Assembly (NCBI RefSeq): GCF_038957035.1
Contig: NZ_CP152412.1
Location: 496,001 to 560,000, forward strand
Direction of reading: 5' to 3'
Origin: Bradyrhizobium sp. B097
GTDB lineage: Bacteria; Pseudomonadota; Alphaproteobacteria; Rhizobiales; Xanthobacteraceae
DNA length: 64,000 nucleotides
Position numbers and translations under genes: made by a program. This document shows, piece by piece, positions 26,802 to 45,260 of this stretch; positions within the stretch are counted from its first letter, which is position 1; each line of letters opens with the position of its first letter. The notes under the pieces are model-generated. The model saw nothing but the letters and a program-made list of their open reading frames with translations. It had not been told where the DNA came from and searched no databases.

Positions 26802-28022
26802 TCAGGCGGTCGGAGCGGGCCGCGCCGGCGGCGGCGTCATTGGCTCGACCTTGTAGGTCTTCGGCAGGTTGATCGGCCGGTAGGCCGGATCCTTCTCCAT
26901 GCGCTCCAGCACCGAGGCGTGGATGGTCGCCCCTTCCGGTATAGGCCGCGGCTCGCCGCGTGGCAGATAGAAGCCGAGGAAGGACTTCCGCTCCGGCCAT
27001 TCCTTCCATTTGTCGCTCTTCGGAATCCATTCCAGGATTTCCCAGGCGGCGGTCAGCGAATTGTGCAGCGGGGCCGTCGCGCTCGGCGGCACATAGTCGT
27101 GCTTGTGCGGCGGCAGCGGCATCCCCCAGGCGAGATGATCGATCAGCGCCTGATCCATGTGCAGCCCGGCGGACCCGGCCTGCTCGAGCATCCAGATCAG
27201 CGGAAATTTTGACGGCCCGCTCTGGTCCTCGGGATAGCCGCCGCCGACGTCGGAGTGCACGCCGGCGAACCAGACCTGGCGAATGTCCTGCTCCACCTCC
27301 CTTGCCGGATTGAACGGATCGGAGCGGAATTTCTGCGGTTCAATCCAGCGGTTGAGGCGGAACATGCGCCTGCGTTCATCGATCGAGATCGCCTGGCGGA
27401 ATCGCCTGACGCTGGAATTGGTGCGGGTGAACAGCAGCGTCTGGATGTCGAACAGGAAGTTGTCCTGCCGCGGCACGATGATCGAGGCCACGGTGTCCCA
27501 GACCCCGACGAACTCGATGTCGATGTTGCGCCCCCCGGCGATCTGGCTGAAGTGCCAGGCTTCCTTCAGCGGGGCATCGTCGAAAGTGCCGTCCGATTTC
27601 TGGGAGTCGGAGCTGGCTTTCTTGTAGGTGTTGAACGCGTAGTCCGCGATATCGAGCTGGTCGACCGGCAACAGGCCCATCACATGGACGAAGGCCGCCA
27701 GCGTGCGCACGGTATAGGCGCCGCGGCTGAAGCCGAACATCCAGACCCGGTCGCCGGGCTCCCAGAGCCGGCACAAAAACCGGTAGGCGCCAAGCGTGTC
27801 CTCGTCGAGACCGGCGCCGAAGGCCAGCCCGAAAAGGCCGCGCACCTCCTGCTTGAAGCGGCCCCAGCTGTTCTGCAGGCCGATCGTGCCGAGACCCGGA
27901 TGATAGTAGATCCGCTGCCGGTCGTCCTTGTCGGCGACGCGAAACAGCTTCAGGACGTTGGAAATATTGGCGCCGATCTCGTTGCCGGTGCCATCGCAAC
28001 AAATCACAAGATCCTTCGGCAT
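26802..28022 (-). CDS. DUF2235 alpha/beta-hydrolase domain protein (Tle1-like)
   Basis: 406 residues. Starts with KDLVICCDGTGNE and carries the nucleophile elbow GFSRGAYTVRT (G-x-S-x-G, about residue 105), GVWDTVAS and GVHSDVGGGY (DUF2235 markers with the catalytic Asp/His near the end). Related to the phospholipase-like Tle1 effectors of type VI secretion and to fungal/bacterial uncharacterised hydrolases. No secretion genes lie beside it, so its role (lipase or other esterase) is open. The start with RGQRMPKDL is set at 28022; the long upstream frame has no coding look. Confidence 0.8.
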   Translation of the reverse strand: MPKDLVICCDGTGNEIGANISNVLKLFRVADKDDRQRIYYHPGLGTIGLQNSWGRFKQEVRGLFGLAFGAGLDEDTLGAYRFLCRLWEPGDRVWMFGFSRGAYTVRTLAAFVHVMGLLPVDQLDIADYAFNTYKKASSDSQKSDGTFDDAPLKEAWHFSQIAGGRNIDIEFVGVWDTVASIIVPRQDNFLFDIQTLLFTRTNSSVRRFRQAISIDERRRMFRLNRWIEPQKFRSDPFNPAREVEQDIRQVWFAGVHSDVGGGYPEDQSGPSKFPLIWMLEQAGSAGLHMDQALIDHLAWGMPLPPHKHDYVPPSATAPLHNSLTAAWEILEWIPKSDKWKEWPERKSFLGFYLPRGEPRPIPEGATIHASVLERMEKDPAYRPINLPKTYKVEPMTPPPARPAPTA

Positions 28023-28355
28023 CCGTTGCCCCCGCGGCCGCCGTGAAAATTCGTGACCTCTATGTACGGCAGAATACGGGGAGGATTCAATCTCCAATTG
28101 AAGACGGTTCTGTGTACGCGGCATGAACGCCGATCGTCGTTCTGGAGTCTGCGGCCGGCATCGGGCGCGCGTGCGCGCACTCCGCAGTGATCCGCAGAAT
28201 TCAATTGCAACACTTCGGAAAAGGTGGAAATCTCATCGTAAGTCATTGCGATATTGCGTTGATATTCTTCTCCCCTTCAGGATTTCGCCGGTGCGCGCGA
28301 TCATCTTGTCCGCTGCCTTCCGCAGCTTCCGCAGCCCTAACAGGAATGGATCGGC
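28023..28355. other. Intergenic region between divergent genes
   Basis: No gene, RNA or repeat recognised in 333 nt. It must hold the promoters of the DUF2235 gene (leftward) and the four-helix membrane gene (rightward). Confidence 0.4.
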
Positions 28356-32193: not shown

Positions 32194-32826
32194 TCACCTC
32201 AGCGTGACGCCGGTCGCCGCTTCGAGTTCGGAGATCGCCTGCGCGGCGTTCGTGACCTTGATCGTGGTCATGCCCATCTCGCGCGCCGGCTTCAGGTTGA
32301 CGCCGAGATCGTCGAGATAGACGCAGTTCTTCGGGTTCACCTGCAGCGTCTCCACCATCATCTGGTAGATGCGCGGATCGGGCTTGCGCAGGCCGATCTT
32401 CGCGGACTCGATGACATGGTCGAACAGCGACATCACTTCGGCAACATAGAGCGTGCGTCCGCTGTGGCTGCCGATTGCATTCGACGGCAGATTGTTGGTG
32501 ATGCAGCCGGTCTTGAACTTCGCCTTGATGCGCTTCAGCGCCTCGACCATTTCCGGGCGCAGGTCGCCGGAGAGCAGCGGCAGCACGTCCTTGCCGCGCA
32601 CCTCGGCGCCGAGCGCCTTCGATTCCGTGGCGAACAGCTCGTCGAACGCGTCGATTCCGATCTCGGCGCGCTCGAACTTGGCCCAGGCGTTTTCGAGATG
32701 GTTGGCTGCGTTGGTGCGGCGGATGATGTCGACCGGCAGGCCGCGCTCGGTCTCGTAGCGTGCGAAGGCCTCGAACGGCGAGGTGGTCAACACGCCGCCG
32801 AAATCCCAGATCACTGCCTCGATCAT
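32194..32826 (-). CDS. HAD-superfamily hydrolase (HAD-IA, epoxide hydrolase N-terminal / phosphatase-like)
   Basis: 210 residues. Motif I DFGGVLTTSP (Asp nucleophile, with Gly in place of the second Asp), motif II ITNN, motif III K in IGLRKPDPRIY and motif IV LDDLGVNL. The DFGG form occurs in HAD-IA members related to ACAD10/epoxide-hydrolase N-terminal domains. It may be a phosphatase with a missing acid Asp or a different catalyst. The start is ATG 32826 with AGGA five bases upstream; TTG 32829 is less likely. Single gene. Confidence 0.85.
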   Translation of the reverse strand: MIEAVIWDFGGVLTTSPFEAFARYETERGLPVDIIRRTNAANHLENAWAKFERAEIGIDAFDELFATESKALGAEVRGKDVLPLLSGDLRPEMVEALKRIKAKFKTGCITNNLPSNAIGSHSGRTLYVAEVMSLFDHVIESAKIGLRKPDPRIYQMMVETLQVNPKNCVYLDDLGVNLKPAREMGMTTIKVTNAAQAISELEAATGVTLR

Positions 32827-32981
32827 CAATGTCCTGCCCGTTGCAAAGCGGCGGCTTCGCCTCGGGTCGTCCGGCCATTTTGGCCGAAGACAGGGAAACG
32901 CGCGTTCAGCCTTCTTTATTGGAATTGCCGCCGATCAGGCAAGCCGCCAGTTTGCGGCAAACTCCGCCATACGGAACGGTC

Positions 32982-33680
32982 TCACCAGACCATCGGAACC
33001 AGGCGGTAGCGCACGCGCCCGAGATATTCGGCATAGCCGTCGAGCTCGGCGGCGAGCATCCGCTCCTCCATCATGGACCTCAGGCCGAGCAGCGCCGCCA
33101 TGACAGGCACGATGCCAAGGCCCCACCAGGATCCGAGCAGCAGCGGGGTGCCGACATAGGTCAACAGGCCACTGGCATAGATCGGGTGCCGCACATAGGC
33201 GTACGGCCCCGTGGTCACCGCAGCATGCCCGCGCTCGCGCTGGATCTTCACGACCGGGGCGGCGTAGCTGTTTTCCTGGTAGGTCCGGTAGACGATGTAG
33301 AACGATGCGGCGATCATCACCGCGCCGGCGCATTGCAGCCAGAACGGGATGAACGATGTCTGGTAGCGCACCGCGTCGAGCGCCATCAGCGGCAACCATG
33401 TCAGCCACAACAGCGGCATGATCGTCGTGATGGCGCGATCCCACCCGGCCTGGCCGCGCGCCGTGCGGCGCTCCGCCAGCAGCCCCGGATCATGTCTGGC
33501 GAGCCATGCCTCGGTGATCAGTCCACCGATCGTGATCTCGAGCAGGAACATCCAGGCGCCGGCCCATCGCAGGGTGCCGGCCGCGAGAAACAGGAGGGTC
33601 CCGAGGCCCACGAATGTGCCGGCGGCACGGCGCAGATTGATGCCAGGGGGATTGCCGTTAGGATTGCCGTTCTGGTTCAT
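32982..33680 (-). CDS. Isoprenylcysteine carboxyl methyltransferase-family membrane protein
   Basis: 232 residues with about four to five membrane segments and the ICMT/PEMT signature: GPYAYVRHPIYASGLLTYVG followed by EERMLAAELDGYAEYLGRVR YRLVPMVW, which binds S-adenosylmethionine. Bacterial members methylate phospholipids, small molecules or unknown acceptors. It is on the same strand as, and 99 nt downstream of, the small-ORF cluster that follows the PatA/PatG-like protease, so a role in the same locus is possible but unproven. Confidence 0.85.
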   Translation of the reverse strand: MNQNGNPNGNPPGINLRRAAGTFVGLGTLLFLAAGTLRWAGAWMFLLEITIGGLITEAWLARHDPGLLAERRTARGQAGWDRAITTIMPLLWLTWLPLMALDAVRYQTSFIPFWLQCAGAVMIAASFYIVYRTYQENSYAAPVVKIQRERGHAAVTTGPYAYVRHPIYASGLLTYVGTPLLLGSWWGLGIVPVMAALLGLRSMMEERMLAAELDGYAEYLGRVRYRLVPMVW

Positions 33681-33779: not shown

Positions 33780-34118
33780 TTACGGTCTGCGGGTCCAGTT
33801 TCGTGCCTGTCCGGAATAGACCTTGCTCGGCAATCCGCGGGCTGCGGGATCGAGCAGGATCTTCATCGCGGTGTTGAGCCGCTCCTCCGAGCGCGGCGAG
33901 CCATCATGGCGCATCTGCTGCGGAGCACCGGGGCCCTGCGGCGGCGCCATGTAGGCCGACGTTGTCGGCGGGGCGGGCGTGGTGGCGATCTTCGGACGGG
34001 CGACAACGGCCGCCTCCAACGGGCGCCGCGCGTCGGCAAGGCTTGACGCTGCGGATGCTTCCGCGGGCGGCGGAGAGGCGGCGCTGTCGGATCCGGATTT
34101 GCGGGGCGGTTTTGCCAT
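33780..34118 (-). CDS. Pro/Ala-rich small protein downstream of the PatA/PatG-like protease
   Basis: 112 residues, hydrophilic, low complexity in the first 75 (ASPPPAEASAASSL; APPTTSAYMAPPQGPGAPQQ) with a more regular tail (RSEERLNTAMKILLDPAARGLPS). No signal peptide or Cys. GGAG eight bases before ATG 34118. Third of three tiny genes on the protease strand. Might be an accessory or precursor protein, but I see no leader/core pattern. Confidence 0.55.
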   Translation of the reverse strand: MAKPPRKSGSDSAASPPPAEASAASSLADARRPLEAAVVARPKIATTPAPPTTSAYMAPPQGPGAPQQMRHDGSPRSEERLNTAMKILLDPAARGLPSKVYSGQARNWTRRP

Positions 34119-34154: not shown

Positions 34155-34334
34155 TCAGGATTTGTCTTCGTCGGATGTGGTGCGTTTGGCGATGATCGGG
34201 TTGCGGTCGCTGATCGCGGCGAGCAGCGAGGCGTGGGTCACGACTGACGACACGACGATCTTTCCGGAGGGCTCGATCCGGCGACCGTTCTTCTGCTGTT
34301 GCTGTGGGCTTCCGGCGGTGGATTTCTGCATCAT
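34155..34334 (-). CDS. 59-residue peptide of the PatA/PatG-like locus
   Basis: Starts MMQKSTAGSPQQQQ, then a basic stretch and a middle hydrophobic/beta segment (GKIVVSSVVTHASLLAAISD), with a charged tail (AKRTTSDEDKS). No Cys. Very good ribosome site GAGGAGG. It follows the 63-residue ORF after 58 nt containing a hairpin. Candidate substrate or regulator of the protease; function unknown. Confidence 0.5.
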   Translation of the reverse strand: MMQKSTAGSPQQQQKNGRRIEPSGKIVVSSVVTHASLLAAISDRNPIIAKRTTSDEDKS

Positions 34335-34392: not shown

Positions 34393-34584
34393 TCAGATGC
34401 CGAAGGCACCGAGGACGCCCGGCAGCGCCTGCACGGCCGTACCGAGGATGTCCTGCCAACCCTGCGGGTTGACCGACCCGTTGGTCGCCACTTCGGCAAT
34501 CCGCTTCGGACCGCGCTCGATGCCCTCACACTGGATCGGGCTACGCACGCTGCCGAAGGTCTCAAAGTCGTTCCTTGCGTACAT
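34393..34584 (-). CDS. 63-residue peptide, best candidate precursor of the PatA/PatG-like locus
   Basis: Starts MYARNDFETFGSVRSPIQCE, then a charged part and a hydrophobic end (DILGTAVQALPGVLGAFGI), i.e. a leader-like front and an amphipathic/hydrophobic tail with one Cys. Ideal Shine-Dalgarno AAGGAG six bases before ATG 34584. It is the first ORF after the protease, on the same strand, with a perfect 11-bp hairpin between. The classic cyanobactin cleavage signal (AYDG/SYDG) is not present, so substrate status is inference. Confidence 0.5.
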   Translation of the reverse strand: MYARNDFETFGSVRSPIQCEGIERGPKRIAEVATNGSVNPQGWQDILGTAVQALPGVLGAFGI

Positions 34585-34758: not shown

Positions 34759-37218
34759 TCAATAGACCTGCCACTGCCGCAGCGGCCCGACCGCCACCGG
34801 CACCACGTCGCTCACGTCGATCGTGTACTGATAGACTTCGCGCGCCTGGGTCAGGACCTGCGTCGGGTTGAAGAAGCGGTAGGTCACGTCGTGGCAAATC
34901 GATTCCGGACGGCAGATGAGACTCTGGTCGACCTCGACGGTGTCGAGCCGCAAGCCCTTCTTGGCGACGTCGGTGAAGATCTTCCGCGTATTGTAGGCAT
35001 TCATCGCCGAGTAGTTCAGCGCGCGATCCTGCGGCGAAAGGCCGACATTGCGGAATTCGTTGTAGATGCGGTCGAGGAAGCCCTCGGCGCCGTCCGGCCA
35101 AGTGGTGGGGTCGGGCCCGAACAGCGTGTAGAGATCCCACTGGTAGAAGCCGCGCCAATCGGTCACCAGCGTCGGAACGACCGTGCCGTTGAGCAGTTTG
35201 GTCGTGTTGGTGCTGTCGACCCAACCGGCCATCGAGACCCGCGCGACGCCGCCGCGCGGCGGGAATGCGGGGGGCGTGATCGGTCGTGCGTCAGCGCCGG
35301 CGGCAGCCGCATTCGCCAGCACCACGGTGCGGGTCGTCGCGGGATCGTCATGCGAGACTTCCTGATGCCACAGCGCCAGGATCAGCGCGGCGAAGAACCC
35401 GAGACCGAACACGTCGAGCGGCTTGATCGCATAGATCGGGATCGAATCGATCGTCATCGTCCAAGTGATGGCGTCGGCGTCCGGGAAGTTGTTGCCGGCC
35501 CCGGCCGGTGTCGCGGTCTCGCCTTCGGCCTGATTCAGCAGATAGCGCGCCATGATCGCCGGATTGTACGGCGCCGAGGTATCGCCGGAGTGGTCGCGCT
35601 CGGGCCCGAACGCCGGATCGCCACGTCCGATCAGGCTGTCGCGCCAGTTGGCGATCGCCTGCACGAAGTAGTCGAGGCGGGCTTCCTTGCCGAAATCGTA
35701 GAACAGCCGGCCGATCGGGAAGGCGAGCTGACCGGTGGACTCGGCCGTCGCGCCCCGCGGACGCATGCCGCCGCCACAGCCGCAGTTCTTCTCGCTGGTT
35801 CGAACCGCGGGCGCTTCATACATCGGCAGCGCCTGGGGCATTGCGACGGGAAGCGCATTGCTCGGCATCAGCGCGTGCAGCTGCTGCGGCTGCAGCCAGG
35901 TTTGCGGCATCATGCCGGCCGTTGGCATTGCCATCTGCGGCATCATCATCGGCGGCATCACCATCTGGGGTGCCGGTGCAGGCATCCAGACCATGTCGCC
36001 GCCCGCATGGGGGGCGTGATACGGATAAGGCGCGGGTGCGGCGATCGGCGCGGCGACGACGCCGTGATCAACTGAAGCGGCCATGGCCGCAGGTGCCGTC
36101 GGCGCGGCGGGCTGCGCCTCGCTTGGCATGATCCCGGCGTTGCTTCGCAGGACCGAGCCGTCCGGCCCGAATATGCGCGGAGCCGATGGTGCAGACATTG
36201 CTGATAGATCTCCCATGGAACCCTCTCTGGTTGCAGTTGGCTGAGCGGCGGATGACGGTTGGACGAAAGGGCGCGCGGACACTCCCCAGAAGCGGGGAGG
36301 CGCGGCCGTGGTACCCGACGGCATGACGGCGTCCGCCTGCTCGCCAAGCAGGGCGGCGACAGCCGCGGGAATATCGAGCCGTCCGGCGAGACAGCGCGAG
36401 GCGCTGCCGTCGTTGCGGCACGGCGCCGCGCTTTCGAGCAGCGCGGCACGGACGGCTTGCGGATCGGCCTTGCGTCCGTTCTGGCGCAGGCATGAAAGCA
36501 GCAGCGCGACGACGCCGGTGACGATCGGCGCCGCGTAGCTCGTTCCGGAACGCAGGCTGACGTTGCGGACCGGCGAGGCGCCGGCGATGTTGTCGCCCGG
36601 CGCCAGGATGCCGTTCTCGAGATAGGCGTCGCCGAAATTGCTGAACGGCAGCGGGTTGCCGGCCAGATCGCACGCGCCGACCGCAAGCACCGAAGCGAGG
36701 CTGCCCGGCACCTGGACGCAGCGGCAGCCATCATTGCCGGCGGCGGCGACGATCAGCTTGCCGGCGCGCTCGCAGGCCCGCACCGCGTCGACCAGAATGC
36801 GATCGGCCTGTCCCGTCGCGGATTGCTGACCGCTGCTGATGTTGATGATGTCGGCGCCCACCGCCAGCGCCTGGTTGATTGCGAGCGCCAAGGTGCTTTG
36901 CGAGGACGGCTCGATCTGTCCGGCGGCATTCTCGCGATAGATCGAGAACACGGTTGCGCTGCAGTTCGGCGCGACGCCGAGCACCGGGCTGCCGGGTGTC
37001 CCCATCAGCACGCTCGTGACATGCGTGCCGTGCTCGGACTGGATGATCGACGACGACGGCGCGACGAACTCGCCGCCCATGGCGACACGGGCCTGCCTGA
37101 GCGAGGGATGATTGAGATCGACGGGGCCGTCGATGATTGCGATCTTCACCGCGGGGTCGCCACCCGACGTTCTCTGCCACAAGGCAGCCAGACCAGCGAT
37201 GTCGGCAACTGGATTCAT
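34759..37218 (-). CDS. Subtilisin-type protease of the cyanobactin PatA/PatG maturation family
   Basis: 819 residues, no clear signal peptide. The S8 protease domain spans residues 1-300 with the triad D30 (IAIIDGPVDL), H63 (SEHGTHVTSVLMG), S227 (RSGTSYAAPIVTG) and oxyanion Asn162 (AAAGND). A Pro/Met/Ala-rich low-complexity part (about 330-475) and a Cys cluster (NCGCGGG, about 476-482) follow. The C-terminal domain (about 490-819) matches PatA/PatG: RLFYDFGKEARLDYFVQA, ITWTMTIDSIPIYAIKP, EFRNVGLSPQDRALNYSAMN, LICRPESICHDVTYRFFNPT and YTIDVSDVVPVAVGPLRQW. PatA cleaves and PatG cleaves/macrocyclises cyanobactin precursors. Start 37218 has AGGA nine bases upstream; the open frame begins at 37311. 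Confidence 0.88.
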   Translation of the reverse strand: MNPVADIAGLAALWQRTSGGDPAVKIAIIDGPVDLNHPSLRQARVAMGGEFVAPSSSIIQSEHGTHVTSVLMGTPGSPVLGVAPNCSATVFSIYRENAAGQIEPSSQSTLALAINQALAVGADIINISSGQQSATGQADRILVDAVRACERAGKLIVAAAGNDGCRCVQVPGSLASVLAVGACDLAGNPLPFSNFGDAYLENGILAPGDNIAGASPVRNVSLRSGTSYAAPIVTGVVALLLSCLRQNGRKADPQAVRAALLESAAPCRNDGSASRCLAGRLDIPAAVAALLGEQADAVMPSGTTAAPPRFWGVSARPFVQPSSAAQPTATREGSMGDLSAMSAPSAPRIFGPDGSVLRSNAGIMPSEAQPAAPTAPAAMAASVDHGVVAAPIAAPAPYPYHAPHAGGDMVWMPAPAPQMVMPPMMMPQMAMPTAGMMPQTWLQPQQLHALMPSNALPVAMPQALPMYEAPAVRTSEKNCGCGGGMRPRGATAESTGQLAFPIGRLFYDFGKEARLDYFVQAIANWRDSLIGRGDPAFGPERDHSGDTSAPYNPAIMARYLLNQAEGETATPAGAGNNFPDADAITWTMTIDSIPIYAIKPLDVFGLGFFAALILALWHQEVSHDDPATTRTVVLANAAAAGADARPITPPAFPPRGGVARVSMAGWVDSTNTTKLLNGTVVPTLVTDWRGFYQWDLYTLFGPDPTTWPDGAEGFLDRIYNEFRNVGLSPQDRALNYSAMNAYNTRKIFTDVAKKGLRLDTVEVDQSLICRPESICHDVTYRFFNPTQVLTQAREVYQYTIDVSDVVPVAVGPLRQWQVY

Positions 37219-37378
37219 GAAATCGATCCTGGCCGATCTGCTGCGAATGCGTGCAGCCGATCCGTCTTCCACGGCAATCTGCAACCGGGCAGCGAACGAA
37301 AAGAGCGGCATGTCGCTGCGTTGCTGCTATTGTGGCAGGTGTGCCGCGAAAGGCCTATTCACCGCGGTGGATCAGAAA

Positions 37379-37570: not shown

Positions 37571-38248
37571 TCAGTCGAGCTCGCGGCGACGATCGAGAGC
37601 CGGCGCAGATGATGCGAGCCACGGCGCTTCGCGGACCCGCCGCATCGCCTGCGCCCGGCGCGGCAGGCCGAGCTTTTGCAGCACGTGATGGACGTGATGC
37701 TTGACGGTTGCAAGACTGAGTTTGAGATCGCGTGCGATCTCCTTGTTCGACATGCCCTGCCCGATGAGCTTGAGAACCTCGCCTTCGCGGCGCGTCAGTC
37801 CCTGGTCGGTATCGATCGTATCCGTCTGACGTTCCATGCAAAACAGCGCGCGCAGCAAGCCGCCGGAAATCTCGGCGCTGCAGGCAAGCCGCCCTGACGC
37901 CACGTCCGACAGTGCGCGGCACAGCTCGTCGAAGCTGGCATTCCGGGAAATGTAGCCGCTGAACCCGGCCCGACCGCAGCGGACCACGTCGCGCCGGTCC
38001 TCGTTGAGGCCGAGCGCCACCAGCGCGATCTCCGCATGCTCGCTCGCAATCACGCGCACCTCGTCGAGATCGATGCCCTGTGTGACGTCGATCAGAATGA
38101 CGCTCACACTTCCGGTCTCGAGGGTCGCGCGCAGGCCGGCAAGATCGGCGACCGCCGCCTCGACGGCAAACTCGGCGTGGTTTTGGAAACTCGAGGCAAG
38201 CCCCTCGCTGAACAGCCTGATCGGCGTGACGACCGCGATCCTCATCAT
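37571..38248 (-). CDS. LuxR/FixJ-type response regulator
   Basis: 225 residues. Receiver domain with the phospho-acceptor Asp in VILIDVTQGID and the Lys/Thr region largely replaced (GFSGYISRNASFDEL keeps the conserved Tyr-Ile-x-K-type loop as Ser), so phosphorylation may be altered. A long linker and a C-terminal LuxR HTH (GLTRREGEVLKLIGQGMSNK ... IARDLKLSLATVKHHVHHVL) follow. Adjacent histidine kinase absent. Same strand and just upstream of the PatA/PatG-like protease: probably controls the locus through the GGATCG cluster. Start 38248 or 38245 (GAGGATA in front). Confidence 0.85.
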   Translation of the reverse strand: MMRIAVVTPIRLFSEGLASSFQNHAEFAVEAAVADLAGLRATLETGSVSVILIDVTQGIDLDEVRVIASEHAEIALVALGLNEDRRDVVRCGRAGFSGYISRNASFDELCRALSDVASGRLACSAEISGGLLRALFCMERQTDTIDTDQGLTRREGEVLKLIGQGMSNKEIARDLKLSLATVKHHVHHVLQKLGLPRRAQAMRRVREAPWLASSAPALDRRRELD

Positions 38249-38388: not shown

Positions 38389-38682
38389 GGCGCGTGATCA
38401 AGAGATACAGTTCACATTCGAACGTTATGCCGGCAACGCGACGCAGGATACGATGTGATGGAGATCGCGGCAAGGCGGCGACACGCAGCGCGTGCGCACC
38501 ATGGGCTGCAGGAAATCTCGTGGCGACTTCAACGCCGTAGTGATCGACGCCTAGATATTTAGATAATTGACGCGTGCGGGCCCGGATGCTCTGTACAAGA
38601 TTGTGTGTTCTTCGGCCGAGTGTGAGCGACGCAATGCCGCGCCTCGGATGTGCTCAATACAGATGCAGATCGACAGGGTTCC

Positions 38683-39444
38683 ATGACGAGCGTGATTCGA
38701 GCGACAGCCTTTCTGACCCTGTTGATGGCAACGCCGGCCTTCGCGATCGTCGGTGGTGGCGCGCCGTCGACCGATGGCGTCGCGCGCGCCGTCGTCACCA
38801 TCGTCGGCTCGCGTGGCAATTTCTGCACCGGCGCGCTGATCGCGCCGAAGGTGGTGCTGACCGCGGCGCATTGCGTACAGCCCGGTGCCGACTACAAGAT
38901 CGTCGACTATGGGCCGGATCGGCAGCCGAAGCTGCAGGACGTCAAGACGGTTGCGATCCATCCCGGCTTTCGGATGCAGGCGATGACCAATCATGTGGCG
39001 ACCGCCGATGTCGCGCTGCTGCAGCTTGCGGACCCGGCCGCAGGCAAGGCGCCGGCCGTGCTCGGCATGCCCAACATTCCGATCCTGGTCGGCGGCCGCT
39101 TCACCGTCGCAGGCGTCGGTGTCACCGTGCGCGGCGACGGCAAGAGCGGCGGCAGCATTCGCGTCGCCGGCCTGATCGCGAGCGGCAAGCCCGGCACGCT
39201 GCAGATCCGCCTGGTCGATCCGGTCGGGCAGGGCGTGCGCGACGGGCTCGGCGCCTGCACCGGCGATTCCGGTGCGCCCGTGTTCGAGGACAAGCCAGGC
39301 GGGCCCGTCATCGTCGGCGTGGTGAGCTGGTCCACCGGCCCGAACGGCACCACGGGCTGCGGCGGCATCACCGGGGTGACGCCGCTCACGCTCTATCGCG
39401 ACTGGGTGATGCAGACCGCGCGGCAGTGGGGCGCGAGCTTTTAG
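38683..39444 (+). CDS. Secreted chymotrypsin-fold serine protease (S1A)
   Basis: 253 residues. Signal peptide (TSVIRATAFLTLLMATPAFA) whose predicted cut leaves the mature N-terminus IVGGG, the form that trypsin-like enzymes need after zymogen activation. Triad H63 (LTAAHCV), D109 (TADVALLQL), S196 (CTGDSGAPVF); Cys pairs in the normal places. The residue equal to trypsin Asp189 is Gly, so it should not prefer Arg/Lys. It would be secreted or periplasmic and active at once. Divergent from the LuxR-type gene, so possibly part of the PatA/PatG-like locus. Start at MTSVI has an AGGG in front. Confidence 0.85.
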   Translation: MTSVIRATAFLTLLMATPAFAIVGGGAPSTDGVARAVVTIVGSRGNFCTGALIAPKVVLTAAHCVQPGADYKIVDYGPDRQPKLQDVKTVAIHPGFRMQAMTNHVATADVALLQLADPAAGKAPAVLGMPNIPILVGGRFTVAGVGVTVRGDGKSGGSIRVAGLIASGKPGTLQIRLVDPVGQGVRDGLGACTGDSGAPVFEDKPGGPVIVGVVSWSTGPNGTTGCGGITGVTPLTLYRDWVMQTARQWGASF

Positions 39445-41997: not shown

Positions 41998-42588
41998 TCA
42001 GGAACCTGATTCGGGTCGGCTCGAATTCGGGTCGATCATGGTCGCGTGCAGCAGATAGCGCTCGGGGCCGGACGTCAGCGCGTCGAACGGCCAGCAGGTC
42101 GACAGCACCAGCTCATACCGGTTGGTGAGCGGATCGATGCCGGACTGGTCGAAGCGGACGATCGAGCTGCGATCGGCGAGGTAGCGAAACATCTTGCCGT
42201 CGCTTCTCGTGACGTCGATCTCGTCACCGATTGTGACATCCTTCAGAAATCGGAAATGGGTGTCGCGATGCGCGGAATAGACCGCAACGCCCGGCTCGCC
42301 GGCATCGACGGTCTCTTCGACATGGCCGGGGCCGAACGCCAGCGCCTGACCGCTGCTGCCGGCAAGCGCAACCGCGGACGCGTGCAGGCGCTTCACCTCG
42401 ATCCGCGCCACCGGCCAGGTATCGGCCCAGCGCCAGGGCTTCACGGGATGGCCGGTCGCGATGCTCTGCGCGAAAGCGCGCTCCAGTAGCACCTGCGCGA
42501 GCACCGCCTTGGCGTGGATATAGGCGCCCTGGCCGAACAGGATCAGGCCGATGAGGGCGAAGGCGAGGGGGAGGATGAAGCGGTGCAT
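41998..42588 (-). CDS. Class GN sortase (proteobacterial sortase)
   Basis: 196 residues. N-terminal membrane anchor (FILPLAFALIGLILFGQGAY) then the sortase beta-barrel with H107 (YSAHRDTHFRFL), Cys165 (LVLSTCWPFDA) and Arg177 (GPERYLLHA). This is the type known as class GN or marine-proteobacterial sortase, which cleaves at an LPxT-like signal of one partner protein. The partner is encoded next door (42788-45061). GGAG stands in front of ATG 42588, so the TTG at 42597 is not used. Inner-membrane enzyme facing the periplasm. Confidence 0.9.
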   Translation of the reverse strand: MHRFILPLAFALIGLILFGQGAYIHAKAVLAQVLLERAFAQSIATGHPVKPWRWADTWPVARIEVKRLHASAVALAGSSGQALAFGPGHVEETVDAGEPGVAVYSAHRDTHFRFLKDVTIGDEIDVTRSDGKMFRYLADRSSIVRFDQSGIDPLTNRYELVLSTCWPFDALTSGPERYLLHATMIDPNSSRPESGS

Positions 42589-42601
42589 GTTCTCCAATCC
42601 T

Positions 42602-42686
42602 CGTCATTGCGAGGAGAGTAGCGACGAAGCAATCCATACTTCCCCGCGCGGTGACATGGATTGCTTCGCTTCGCTCGCAATGACGG
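42602..42686. repeat. Palindromic repeat, GTCATTGCGAG family (copy 2)
   Basis: CGTCATTGCGAGGAG ... GAAGCAATCCAT and ATGGATTGCTTCGCTTCG ... CTCGCAATGACGG, as at 12477-12561. It lies between the sortase gene and its target gene. Confidence 0.8.
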
Positions 42687-42787
42687 TTGAGAAAGAGTGG
42701 CGCGCGCGGCCCCCGGGGGGACGGGTGAGAAGGCCGCGCGCGCTCTTGAAAGAGGAGGTCGGGGGCACCTCCTCCTTTCATCCGACG

Positions 42788-45061
42788 TCAGTGGGACGAC
42801 GTCTGACGTCGGTTGAACACCAGAAGCAGAAGGCTGACCGTGAGCAGGATCACACCCGCGATCATCTTCAATTCGGCATCGGTCGCGGTCTTCGGCAGCC
42901 GGATCGTGCCGGGACCTGGCGTCGCGACCGGTGACCGCTTCAGTGCGGCGAGCTGCACCTTGCCGTCGCCGGCGTCGGCGCGGCGTTCGGTCGGTGCAAC
43001 CGGCAGGCGCGGACGCTCGCCGAATACCTTTGCGAACTCCCAGCCCGCGGGCAGGTTGAGCGGCAGTTCAGCAAGCTTCAGCGGCTCGCCTTCGGGACGG
43101 CTCGGCGTCTTGTCGACCGCAACCAGGCTGGTCAGCCGCGTCACAAGCTGATGCTCCAGCGCCAGTGCAAGGATGGTCTTGTCGGCATCCTCCGGGCTCG
43201 CCTGCCGCGTGGTGCGCGCAACCTCGGCATCCGCGATCTTGCGGCGCGCCCACAGCTTGGAGAGGCCCTTGCCTTCGGCGGCATTCGCGAGCGGCAGCGT
43301 CACGCTCCACGGACGATCGCCGATGCGGCCCTTGATCTCGACCGAGCCGGCAAGCTTGTCGAGCTTCGCGGCCAGCACCAGCGGCTCGTCGCGGTAGACA
43401 TCGGGCAGTGCCGACGGCGTCAGGTCGGCCGCCGCCGCGGAGAACTTTGCGGACAGGTTGGTCACCGCCGGATTCTCCAGCTTGGCGAACAGGTCGCGCA
43501 TCCGCTCGTCGACCTGCTCGACCGAGCCGATATGGGTGAAGGTGCCGCGGCCGAGCTCGGCGGCGCGCGTCATTAAATAGGTGTTCGGCGCCGAGCCGAT
43601 GCCGACCATGAAAACGCGCGAGCGGCCGCGCAGCGCGCTGATGGTCTCGAACAATTGCTGCTCGTTGCCGATGGCGCCGTCGGTCAGGAACACGACCTGG
43701 CGGACGTGGTCGGCATCGTCATGGTTGGTGTCGGAGAGCGCTGCGCGCATTGCCGCTACCATTTCGGTGCCGCCGCGCGCCTGCAACGCGCTGACGAACG
43801 CCGTCGCGTTGCCGATATTGGCACTGTTGGCCGCAACCGGCGCCGGGAACAGCGTGTCCATGGTGTCGTCGAAGCGGATCACGTTGAAGCGGTCGGTCGG
43901 CTGCAGGCGGCCGAGCGCGTAGATGAGGCTCGCCTTGGCCTGGATGATCGAGGTGCCGCCCATCGAGCCGGAATTGTCGATCACGAAGATCACTTCACGC
44001 GGCAGGGCCTTCTGTTGCGCCTGTTCGACCGATGGCGGGGTGACGAAGGCCAGCAGATAGTCGGAATTGCCGACATGCTCGCGGAACAGCCCGACCGACG
44101 GCGCCTTCTCGGCGGTCGGCTTCCAGCTCAGCTCGAAATCGCGATCGGCCGGCACCGGGCCTTCGGCGAGCTTGACGATGCGCGTGGTGCTGTCGGGGCT
44201 CTCGATCCTGACCTGGTGGAAATGGCTTTTCACTTCGCCGAGCGCGAAGCCGGCGTTGAGGTGCACCGTGATGTTGGTTGGATTGACCGGGGCGTTCGTT
44301 GCGGGATCGAGCACTTCGGAGGTGATGCGATCGCGATCCGAAACGGGATCGGTCGTGGTGGCGCCCCAGCCGCTGCCATCGGCGCGGAGGTCGACGCTCT
44401 GCACCACCGGCCGCGGATTGTAGCGCGGGCCGACCACCATCGGCACCCGCAGCGAGAACTCGTTGCCGTTCTGCTGCACCGGCTCCTGATATTCGATCTG
44501 CACCAGCACGGTCTCGCCGGGGCCGATATTGGCGACCGAATTGGTGAAGATGTTCGGCCGCTCCTGCTCGGTGAGCGCGGCCTTCTGGCCATTCTGTTTG
44601 GCCTGTTCGTAGATCGCGCGGGCCTGCTGCCGTTCTTTGATGTCGCCGACCACGATGCGGTCGCCGACCACCATCTTCAGCGTGTCGACCGCGCCGCCGG
44701 CCGGCAGCGGATAGACATAGGTCGCTTCCACCCAGTCCTTGGTCGGATTGCGGAAGATCTGCGTGACGCGGGCACGGACCGTCGGACCGGACACGGTGAG
44801 GTCGACATCGATGCCGAGCCTGGTCGCGTCGGCATAGCCGTCGTCGGTCTCGAACAGCAGCGAGCCGGAGCGCGCCTCGCTCGGCCGCAGCACCGCCTGC
44901 TGCGGCAACTCGGCCGACCACACCGGATCAAAGCTCACGAACAGCGCCGCGAAGCCGATCACCAGCGCGGCGACACCTTCCACCAGGAAGAACAGCGCGA
45001 TGCGCATCCGGCGCGATAGGCGGATCTGCGGGCTGCTCTCACATGCATCGTAAATCGTCAT
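42788..45061 (-). CDS. Sortase target: VIT / von Willebrand A protein with C-terminal LPKTA signal
   Basis: 757 residues. N-terminal membrane segment (residues about 18-40, signal/anchor), VIT domain (RARVTQIFRNPTKDWVEATY VYPLPAGGAVDTLKMVVGDR, about 80-190), then a VWA domain with DNSGSMGG (MIDAS) and TDGAIGNE. The end carries the sorting signal LPKTA (722-726), a hydrophobic helix and an RR-containing tail, exactly a sortase substrate layout. This is the family always found with class GN sortase, presumably anchored to the envelope and binding protein or metal. GGAG nine bases before ATG 45061. Confidence 0.9.
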   Translation of the reverse strand: MTIYDACESSPQIRLSRRMRIALFFLVEGVAALVIGFAALFVSFDPVWSAELPQQAVLRPSEARSGSLLFETDDGYADATRLGIDVDLTVSGPTVRARVTQIFRNPTKDWVEATYVYPLPAGGAVDTLKMVVGDRIVVGDIKERQQARAIYEQAKQNGQKAALTEQERPNIFTNSVANIGPGETVLVQIEYQEPVQQNGNEFSLRVPMVVGPRYNPRPVVQSVDLRADGSGWGATTTDPVSDRDRITSEVLDPATNAPVNPTNITVHLNAGFALGEVKSHFHQVRIESPDSTTRIVKLAEGPVPADRDFELSWKPTAEKAPSVGLFREHVGNSDYLLAFVTPPSVEQAQQKALPREVIFVIDNSGSMGGTSIIQAKASLIYALGRLQPTDRFNVIRFDDTMDTLFPAPVAANSANIGNATAFVSALQARGGTEMVAAMRAALSDTNHDDADHVRQVVFLTDGAIGNEQQLFETISALRGRSRVFMVGIGSAPNTYLMTRAAELGRGTFTHIGSVEQVDERMRDLFAKLENPAVTNLSAKFSAAAADLTPSALPDVYRDEPLVLAAKLDKLAGSVEIKGRIGDRPWSVTLPLANAAEGKGLSKLWARRKIADAEVARTTRQASPEDADKTILALALEHQLVTRLTSLVAVDKTPSRPEGEPLKLAELPLNLPAGWEFAKVFGERPRLPVAPTERRADAGDGKVQLAALKRSPVATPGPGTIRLPKTATDAELKMIAGVILLTVSLLLLVFNRRQTSSH

Positions 45062-45260
45062 TTTCGTCACTCCCGAGCGAGGCTTTCGCTGCTTCGCGAT
45101 CATGGAGAGCGGCGGTTTTGGCGCGAGCAGAATGATCGGCAATGATTGGCCGCCGTCCGGCGCGGCCCGCCGCCGTCCGAGGCGGGTTTGTGCGGCTTTG
45201 TGATGGATTGTCCGGTCTGCTAGACTGCGCGGATTGATGGGGAATCAGCGCAGGACCACG

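Follow-up and report, generated by a model that had tools for sequence, protein, structure and literature searches.

The closest described relatives of the system reported here are the cyanobactin maturation proteases PatA and PatG. PatA has the consensus site G(L/V)E(A/P)S, as given in the accessible part of PMC10885120, and shares its C-terminal domain of unknown function (DUF) with PatG (PMC4259220). In the accessible sections of a 2015 review (PMC4663559), cyanobactin clusters are placed in cyanobacteria only, and the macrocyclase domain, with a macrocyclization insert of two helices, is confined to the G protease. Elsewhere, 'cyanobactin-like' genes have been mentioned for Saccharopolyspora (PMC10145562, in extract), a cyanobactin peptidase gene for Roseomonas oryzae (PMC8776678, in extract), and for Streptomyces scabies SCAB_66631 a PatG-DUF homologue encoded next to four short peptides (2020 review, PMC7369419, in extract). 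Here we describe a locus in Bradyrhizobium sp. B097, in a window of 64,000 nucleotides (NZ_CP152412.1, positions 496,001 to 560,000; coordinates below are those of the window), where a PatA-type subtilase gene is followed directly by a small open reading frame (ORF) of 63 codons, ORF63. The two quite probably form a PatA-type peptide maturation system that works without heterocyclase or macrocyclase, with ORF63 as the predicted substrate. This reading is built on what was computed here: protease family, domain layout, co-inheritance, leader motif, the cassette unit, and the lack of a YcaO match and of a second TIGR03895 protease over the cut-off. A first-pass annotation of this DNA, made from the letters alone, had called the peptide pathway apparently undescribed, and we likewise found no earlier description in the open literature, subscription papers and preprints not included; its novelty is provisional. 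The SCAB_66631 neighborhood, compared by description, is alike in combining a PatG-DUF homologue with short peptides and differs in that it is reported as homologous to the DUF only, with no leader motif or cleavage site drawn in the portion of the review at hand.

A PatA-like protease and the search for partner enzymes

The protease gene occupies 34759..37218 on the minus strand and encodes 819 residues within 34762-37218. Its plus-strand reading is interrupted by stops, while the minus-strand translation holds the blocks SPQDRALNYSAMNAYN, VDQSLICRPESICHD and YTIDVSDVVPVAVGPLRQW quoted in the first-pass annotation. Of two possible starts, the ATG at 37218 is preferred over an upstream ATG at 37311, because the stretch between these positions is broken by stops in five close orthologues (L007-L011). 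The family matches are far above chance: the protein scores 458.8 bits against the PatA/PatG family model TIGR03895 (curated cut-off 421.05), 110.9 bits against PF00082 (cut-off 21.8), and 109.2 bits against PF18065, PatG_C, well over its cut-off of 25.9; PF18047, PatG_D, is barely over at 29.8 bits (cut-off 27). The subtilase domain spans residues ~1-295, followed by a linker rich in Pro, Ala and Met (~301-494), modeled by AlphaFold at low confidence, and then by the PatG_D/PatG_C domain. The real reading frame, the PatA/PatG family, the PatG-type C-terminal domain and the complete S8 triad (D30, H63, S227) had all been claimed at first pass, and each of these claims held. Of 58 aligned sequences, 56 keep the triad and two are gapped, at the Asp or at both Asp and His.

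Is this protease, then, a leader protease or a macrocyclase? Among solved structures, the protease half matches PagA best (4h6w, 242.7 bits, 6e-71), with PatA structures at about 1e-64; PatG (4h6x) is weaker at 160.4 bits and 5e-46, the best stretch beginning only at residue 55. Over the full length of the protease domain, identity to PatA/PagA (4h6w, 4h6v, 3zxx, 3zxy) is 45-46%, and the template modeling (TM) score by target length is 0.88-0.94, the AlphaFold model reaching 0.94 with PagA and 0.77 with the PatG macrocyclase 4akt. PatG is matched in the C-terminal domain, where 4uvq aligns with residues 669-817 at 2.8e-26 and a TM score of 0.83. From alignment and model, the protease is PatA-like, a presumed leader-removing enzyme, and not PatG-like: the two-helix macrocyclization insert of PatG was not found in either, and no oxidase domain was matched in Pfam or NCBIfam. 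Since the insert has no counterpart and the match is to PatA, leader removal would be expected and macrocyclization would not. The first-pass annotation had attributed both activities to the family; the cutting survives as a predicted PatA-like function, and the macrocyclization falls with the insert and with a second TIGR03895 protease over the cut-off, neither of which was detected.

A macrocyclic, cyanobactin-like product, which membership in TIGR03895 and the DUF families could suggest, is accordingly a very remote prospect. The spacing between Asp and His is 33 residues, about as in PatA, against ~70 in PatG by alignment, and the AlphaFold model has no helix between D30 and H63. No second TIGR03895 protease scores over the cut-off in the genome (one further subtilase reaches 75.7 bits), and PF18065 has this single match. 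PatB has no match in the genome, in a search positive in three of seven records (W07, G061 and G094, those in which YcaO lies near the protease), and no AYDG-like follower stands after the predicted core of ORF63.

The wider search for partners gave the same picture. YcaO has no match in the whole genome, with the control positive in 5 of 14 named genomes, in agreement with the heterocyclase-free setting proposed at first pass; PatF-type prenyltransferases also had none, in a search that gave no positive control signal. YcaO-dependent azol(in)e peptides are defined by a YcaO cyclodehydratase, for which there is no match here, and cyanobactin clusters, according to the accessible part of PMC4663559, by an A protease together with a G protease, of which no pair over the cut-off was detected in the genome. 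The locus differs from PatA/PagA systems, further, in the lack of a detected partner PatG or PatB, in a precursor without a LAELSEE-type heterocyclase signal or C-terminal AYDG-like signal, and in a predicted core of 22 hydrophobic residues placed at the C terminus.

Two irregular copies were seen among the relatives. In genome G118 (L015, L021), where ORF63 is identical to that of the window, the protease is represented by two overlapping ORFs, possibly a broken copy, and in G052 (L076:5591-7758) subtilase and DUF-like domain are split over two ORFs that enclose a small one.

ORF63, a candidate precursor

The first-pass annotation saw no classic precursor, a statement that no longer stands. 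ORF63 (34393..34584, minus strand, 63 residues, with AAGGAG before its ATG) lies 174 bases downstream of the protease gene on the same strand, has a leader-core layout and is present in each of the 14 genomes that carry a close protease. Neither it nor its small neighbors ORF59 and ORF112 match Pfam or NCBIfam, and ORF63 matches no cyanobactin precursor model. That ORF63 is a chance ORF is ruled out by 53 relatives, found among 5.8 billion proteins, and by purifying selection: ratios of nonsynonymous to synonymous change (pN/pS) of 0.33 for ORF63 and 0.27 for both of its small neighbors, across 18 Bradyrhizobium loci, show that all three are constrained as proteins.

The constraint is unevenly spread. 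The predicted leader, residues 1-41 (34462..34584), has a pN of 0.010 and a pN/pS of 0.20 over these loci, against 0.139 and 0.42 for the predicted core GWQDILGTAVQALPGVLGAFGI, residues 42-63 (34396..34461), making pN ~14-fold lower in the head than in the tail. In the leader lies the motif PIQCEGIER (residues 16-24, 34513..34539), of the form P-x-Q-x3-[VI]-x-R, which is present in 51 of 53 family members. The consensus head reads PIQCEGIERGPKRIAEVAxSGSVNPQ, in which P16, Q18, C19, G21, R24, G25 and P40 never vary; the tails behind it differ. A GSVNPQ-like site is present in 48 of the 53 relatives, and these have 46 distinct cores. GSVNPQ itself (residues 36-41, 34462..34479) is the predicted cleavage site and resembles PatA's consensus. 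The core is hydrophobic, modeled as a low-confidence helix, and ends in ...PGVLGAFGI, with no C-terminal recognition sequence (RSIII, AYDG-like) in ORF63. This anatomy supports ORF63 as a candidate precursor of a ribosomally synthesized and post-translationally modified peptide. As a separate matter, pS is 0.049 in the leader (34462-34584) and 0.332 in the core, perhaps owing to a conserved nucleotide signal or to recent exchange.

Sites of PatA type are more literal in relatives whose peptides share the leader motif. Directly before the variable tail stand GVEPS (L093), GIEPS (L092), GVEAN (L089) and GLEAA (L090), and paralogues in Streptomyces L089 have a common leader and differ almost only after GVEAN. 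Of 35 distinct peptides, 29 have a site like recognition sequence II (RSII), as in PatA substrates, after the motif (28% in shuffled ones); the strict form G[LVI]E[AP][SAN] occurs in 7 of the 35, from four loci only (0.06% in shuffled ones). In the profile comparison GSVNPQ falls in register with the PatA-like site, at weak significance.

ORF63 and the protease are also inherited together. A search of 146 Bradyrhizobium genomes gave 19 with some relative of the protease (E 1e-20) and 15 with a match to the ORF63 profile (E 0.01), one of which, G039, is weak at 0.006; the 14 with a strong ORF63 match are the same 14 that have a close protease. The five further protease genomes (G052, G061, G073, G094, G145) encode more distant proteases and have no ORF63-type precursor. 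Some relatives' contigs hold two or three ORF63 paralogues, and six contigs, matched by length only, are apparently common to the list of ORF63 relatives and that of protease relatives (best 120 of 682).

Co-inheritance and motif sharing, which are all that links the two proteins so far, would also be expected if ORF63 served the protease as chaperone, as inhibitor or as immunity protein, and in Bradyrhizobium ORF59 and ORF112 accompany the protease just as regularly. We regard such a role as decidedly improbable: a conserved head with a variable tail, tandem paralogues and, in relatives, the literal sites GVEPS and GIEPS before that tail all fit a substrate better.

The leader element beyond Bradyrhizobium

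PatG_C is rare among relatives of the window genome, with 2 of 385 genomes of its class, 2 of 398 of its phylum and 8 of 397 of its order; each count takes in the window genome itself. A scan of public genomes (GTDB) with the ORF63 family gave 21 loci, 18 of them in Bradyrhizobium; of the further alphaproteobacterial ones, L047 and L049 have a full protease directly upstream and L048 only the DUF part in an open frame. Plasmid records, of which eight of ten matches were taken in (H7 and H9 left out), yielded cyanobacterial and Streptomyces proteases.

The P-x-Q-x3-[VI]-x-R element turns up again in small ORFs that follow PatA-DUF genes in other Rhizobiales, cyanobacteria and Streptomyces. Among 27 DUF-bearing ORFs, ORF63's own family included, 17 have a motif ORF of 25-160 residues within 2 kb downstream. 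The opposite strand has none, 4 have one upstream, and dinucleotide shuffles give 0.7 (maximum 2); all four upstream cases belong to two YcaO-bearing Bradyrhizobium clusters (L070 and L071, with four proteases). This set counts the partial DUF-bearing ORFs of L048 (245 aa), L096 (289 aa) and L080 (458 aa), lets the window and L013 represent the near-copies L030-L046, L003-L012 and L014, and omits L029 (a near-copy of the window), L076 and L100 (split or truncated DUF, <60 bits) and L091 (a plasmid record whose S8 ORF is short). A stricter test used a pattern from ORF63's conserved columns only and ran it on 22 DUF-bearing ORFs from elsewhere, leaving out those of the ORF63 family as well (window, L013, L029, L047-L049). 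The motif was found downstream in 12 of 22, and in 12 of the 16 without YcaO nearby, as against 0 of 22 on the opposite strand, a mean of 0.38 (maximum 2) in shuffles and 2 of 136 beside other genes; for each of the 16, the YcaO search covered its genome or, for plasmid loci, the plasmid record alone. YcaO is present in L070, L071 and L079. In an alignment of 19 such peptides the P, Q and R columns are invariant by construction, as the peptides were picked for the motif, and this invariance is no evidence.

What might the element do? Bradyrhizobium itself holds an informative comparison, the cyanobactin-class clusters of G094 (L070) and G061 (L071), which have YcaO, PatB-like proteins and LAELSEE-type precursors. 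They share with the window a PatA/DUF protease and precursors bearing PQQSAPVxR (G094) or PVQIAPVSR (G061), and differ in the YcaO adjoining the protease, in PatB and in the LAELSEE-type leaders. In G094 the precursor is a true cyanobactin-class one (PF19155 above cut-off; TIGR03678 at 3e-7, below cut-off), and in 8 of 8 relatives of this DUF5837 protein, hardly independent at 70-100% identity, PQQSAPVxR is followed by LAELSEE or a variant of it. A head of similar kind, MRLPKLAPPVKR, opens the PatB protein of L079. Since the solo systems keep that part of the leader which is not tied to heterocyclase or macrocyclase, the comparison suggests that the element serves the protease or its DUF; and since the DUF survives without either enzyme, the protease or the leader is the more likely candidate for its partner.

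A bolder proposal, which we hold tentatively and think rather doubtful, is a class of lone PatA-DUF protease systems spanning three phyla, in which the leader element is a docking tag read by the C-terminal DUF. If so, enzyme and tag would persist together without heterocyclase, macrocyclase and their recognition sequences. By nuclear magnetic resonance, in the accessible part of Mann et al. (PMC4259220), PatG-DUF did not bind PatE', which speaks against simple docking by the DUF, at least for PatG; those tests used PatG-DUF, not PatA-DUF. With or without docking, the N-terminal protease of cyanobactin clusters seems to have a life outside cyanobactins, with variable peptides of its own in Pseudomonadota, Actinomycetota and Cyanobacteriota. 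Where these peptides bear any name in the sources, it is hypothetical protein, and a simple rule may serve to find more: a PatG_C gene with a small P-x-Q-x3-[VI]-x-R ORF downstream.

A six-gene cassette and its predicted product

A neighborhood comparison across Bradyrhizobium, suggested at first pass, returned one gene order in all 18 loci: a response regulator, then the protease, ORF63, ORF59, ORF112 and an isoprenylcysteine carboxyl methyltransferase (ICMT)-like enzyme. The first gene (37571..38248, minus strand) encodes a LuxR-type regulator, with PF00196 at 63.4 bits and PF00072, the receiver domain, at 21.7, below its cut-off of 30.2. ORF59 (34155..34334, minus strand) has GAGGAG upstream and an ORF59-like counterpart, by eye, in L047; ORF112 (33780..34118, minus strand) follows, and all three small ORFs are preceded by a Shine-Dalgarno-like sequence. 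The last gene (32982..33680, minus strand) encodes a membrane methyltransferase of the ICMT/PEMT family (PF04191, PF04140). The cassette is flanked by a HAD hydrolase (32194..32829, minus strand) and a trypsin-like protein (38650..39444, plus strand; Pfam), which adjoin each other in three non-carriers. There (L101, L103, L106) BLAST finds the two genes 126-153 bases apart, as empty sites; six of nine located genomes were compared, and the other three of the six, lacking the flanks, are uninformative. It is therefore likely that the six genes are acquired and lost together, and methyltransferase and regulator can be counted as parts of the system. Scans for promoters and terminators did no better than shuffles, and Rfam and tRNA scans gave no matches.

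In the mechanism we propose, the P-x-Q-x3-[VI]-x-R element would mark ORF63 as a precursor for the protease, whose subtilase domain would cut after GSVNPQ to release a linear, hydrophobic C-terminal peptide of ~22 residues, neither heterocyclized nor macrocyclized. This product would most likely be membrane-active and bacteriocin-like, possibly methylated at its C terminus by the ICMT-like enzyme, and the LuxR-type regulator would control the cassette. By analogy, a bacteriocin-like activity is the likeliest one, and the products of such systems are probably linear peptides, either membrane-active or Cys-rich. Two kinds of tail recur: hydrophobic, nearly uncharged and helix-like ones in the window, most ORF63 relatives, L074 and most Streptomyces loci, and Cys-rich ones in L073, L077, L080, L093, L094 and L097. 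Across the ORF63 family, core charge ranges from -2 to +10.

Several points weigh against the reading of ORF63 as a PatA-type substrate. Cleavage, its exact site, recognition, export, product activity and methylation are all inferred. The site of the window, GSVNPQ, is not an exact G(L/V)E(A/P)S, and the contrast between head and tail is only twofold by pN/pS (0.20 vs 0.42), the synonymous sites of the leader being conserved too. Comparing the ORF63 family profile with the other leaders, themselves picked for the motif, gives a weak result (probability 6%, E 0.006), and the looser P.Q.....R also arises by chance (observed 15 of 22, shuffles 4.7, opposite strand 3). Four ORFs without YcaO (L078, L095, L098, L099) have no strict motif downstream, although looser variants are seen in L078 and L099 and a possible one in L098, with none in L095, and neither protease of the cyanobacterial PatD cluster L079 has a strict-motif peptide within 2 kb on the same strand. 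The AlphaFold model of ORF63 is poor (mean predicted local distance difference test score, pLDDT, 57.5). The window core has a charge of -1, and 20 listed cores lie between -3 and +1, unlike typical cationic antimicrobial peptides. Finally, the six genes include no exporter or named immunity gene, ORF59 and ORF112 having no family match.

This last gap, together with the hydrophobic cores and the patchy cassette with its empty sites, would suit a protease-triggered killer, in which the leader silences a membrane-disrupting peptide until the cytosolic protease frees it on a signal, in programmed cell death or phage defence. The Streptomyces copies on plasmids point the same way, though that collection holds plasmids only. 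We nevertheless judge this unlikely, as variable cores, tandem paralogues and Cys-rich cores would fit secreted peptides better, and PADLOC, run on three cassette proteins, matched the protease best to a generic subtilase model (3e-22), with weak matches to IetS models. The regulator invites another explanation, in which ORF63 gives rise to a signaling peptide sensed through the LuxR-type protein: its gene is in 18 of 18 Bradyrhizobium cassettes, and response regulators also stand by the proteases of L047 (Pfam), L077 (annotation) and L016 and L074 (by eye). Yet the cassette has no sensor kinase, the Streptomyces loci have BTAD-type regulators instead, and tails differ strongly among relatives, so that signaling appears quite unlikely and a maturation system with ORF63 as its substrate remains our preferred reading.

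Some peptides of the wider group merit a mention of their own. Bradyrhizobium G145, which has no YcaO match, encodes four tandem Cys-bearing motif peptides behind one solo protease (L073:10670-11606). A Cys/Ala-rich core of the type GCNVFKAAACAVALAACG...CVQCLAALGASGCIDCI, with 8 Cys and no convincing family match, recurs in L093, L094, L097 and L073, the one in L093 having only a sub-cut-off match to Acanthaporin. None of eight hypothetical proteins beside Streptomyces and Acaryochloris proteases matched Pfam, and four of the nine peptides searched against NCBIfam besides the G094 precursor had a cyanobactin-related model as their sole match, at E 0.04-0.06 and far below cut-offs.

Elsewhere in the window, 26802-28124 encodes a Tle1-like phospholipase catalytic domain (PF09994), and at 41998-45142 a sortase-domain gene neighbors one for a VIT/VWA-domain protein, a pairing that is unusual in a Gram-negative organism.

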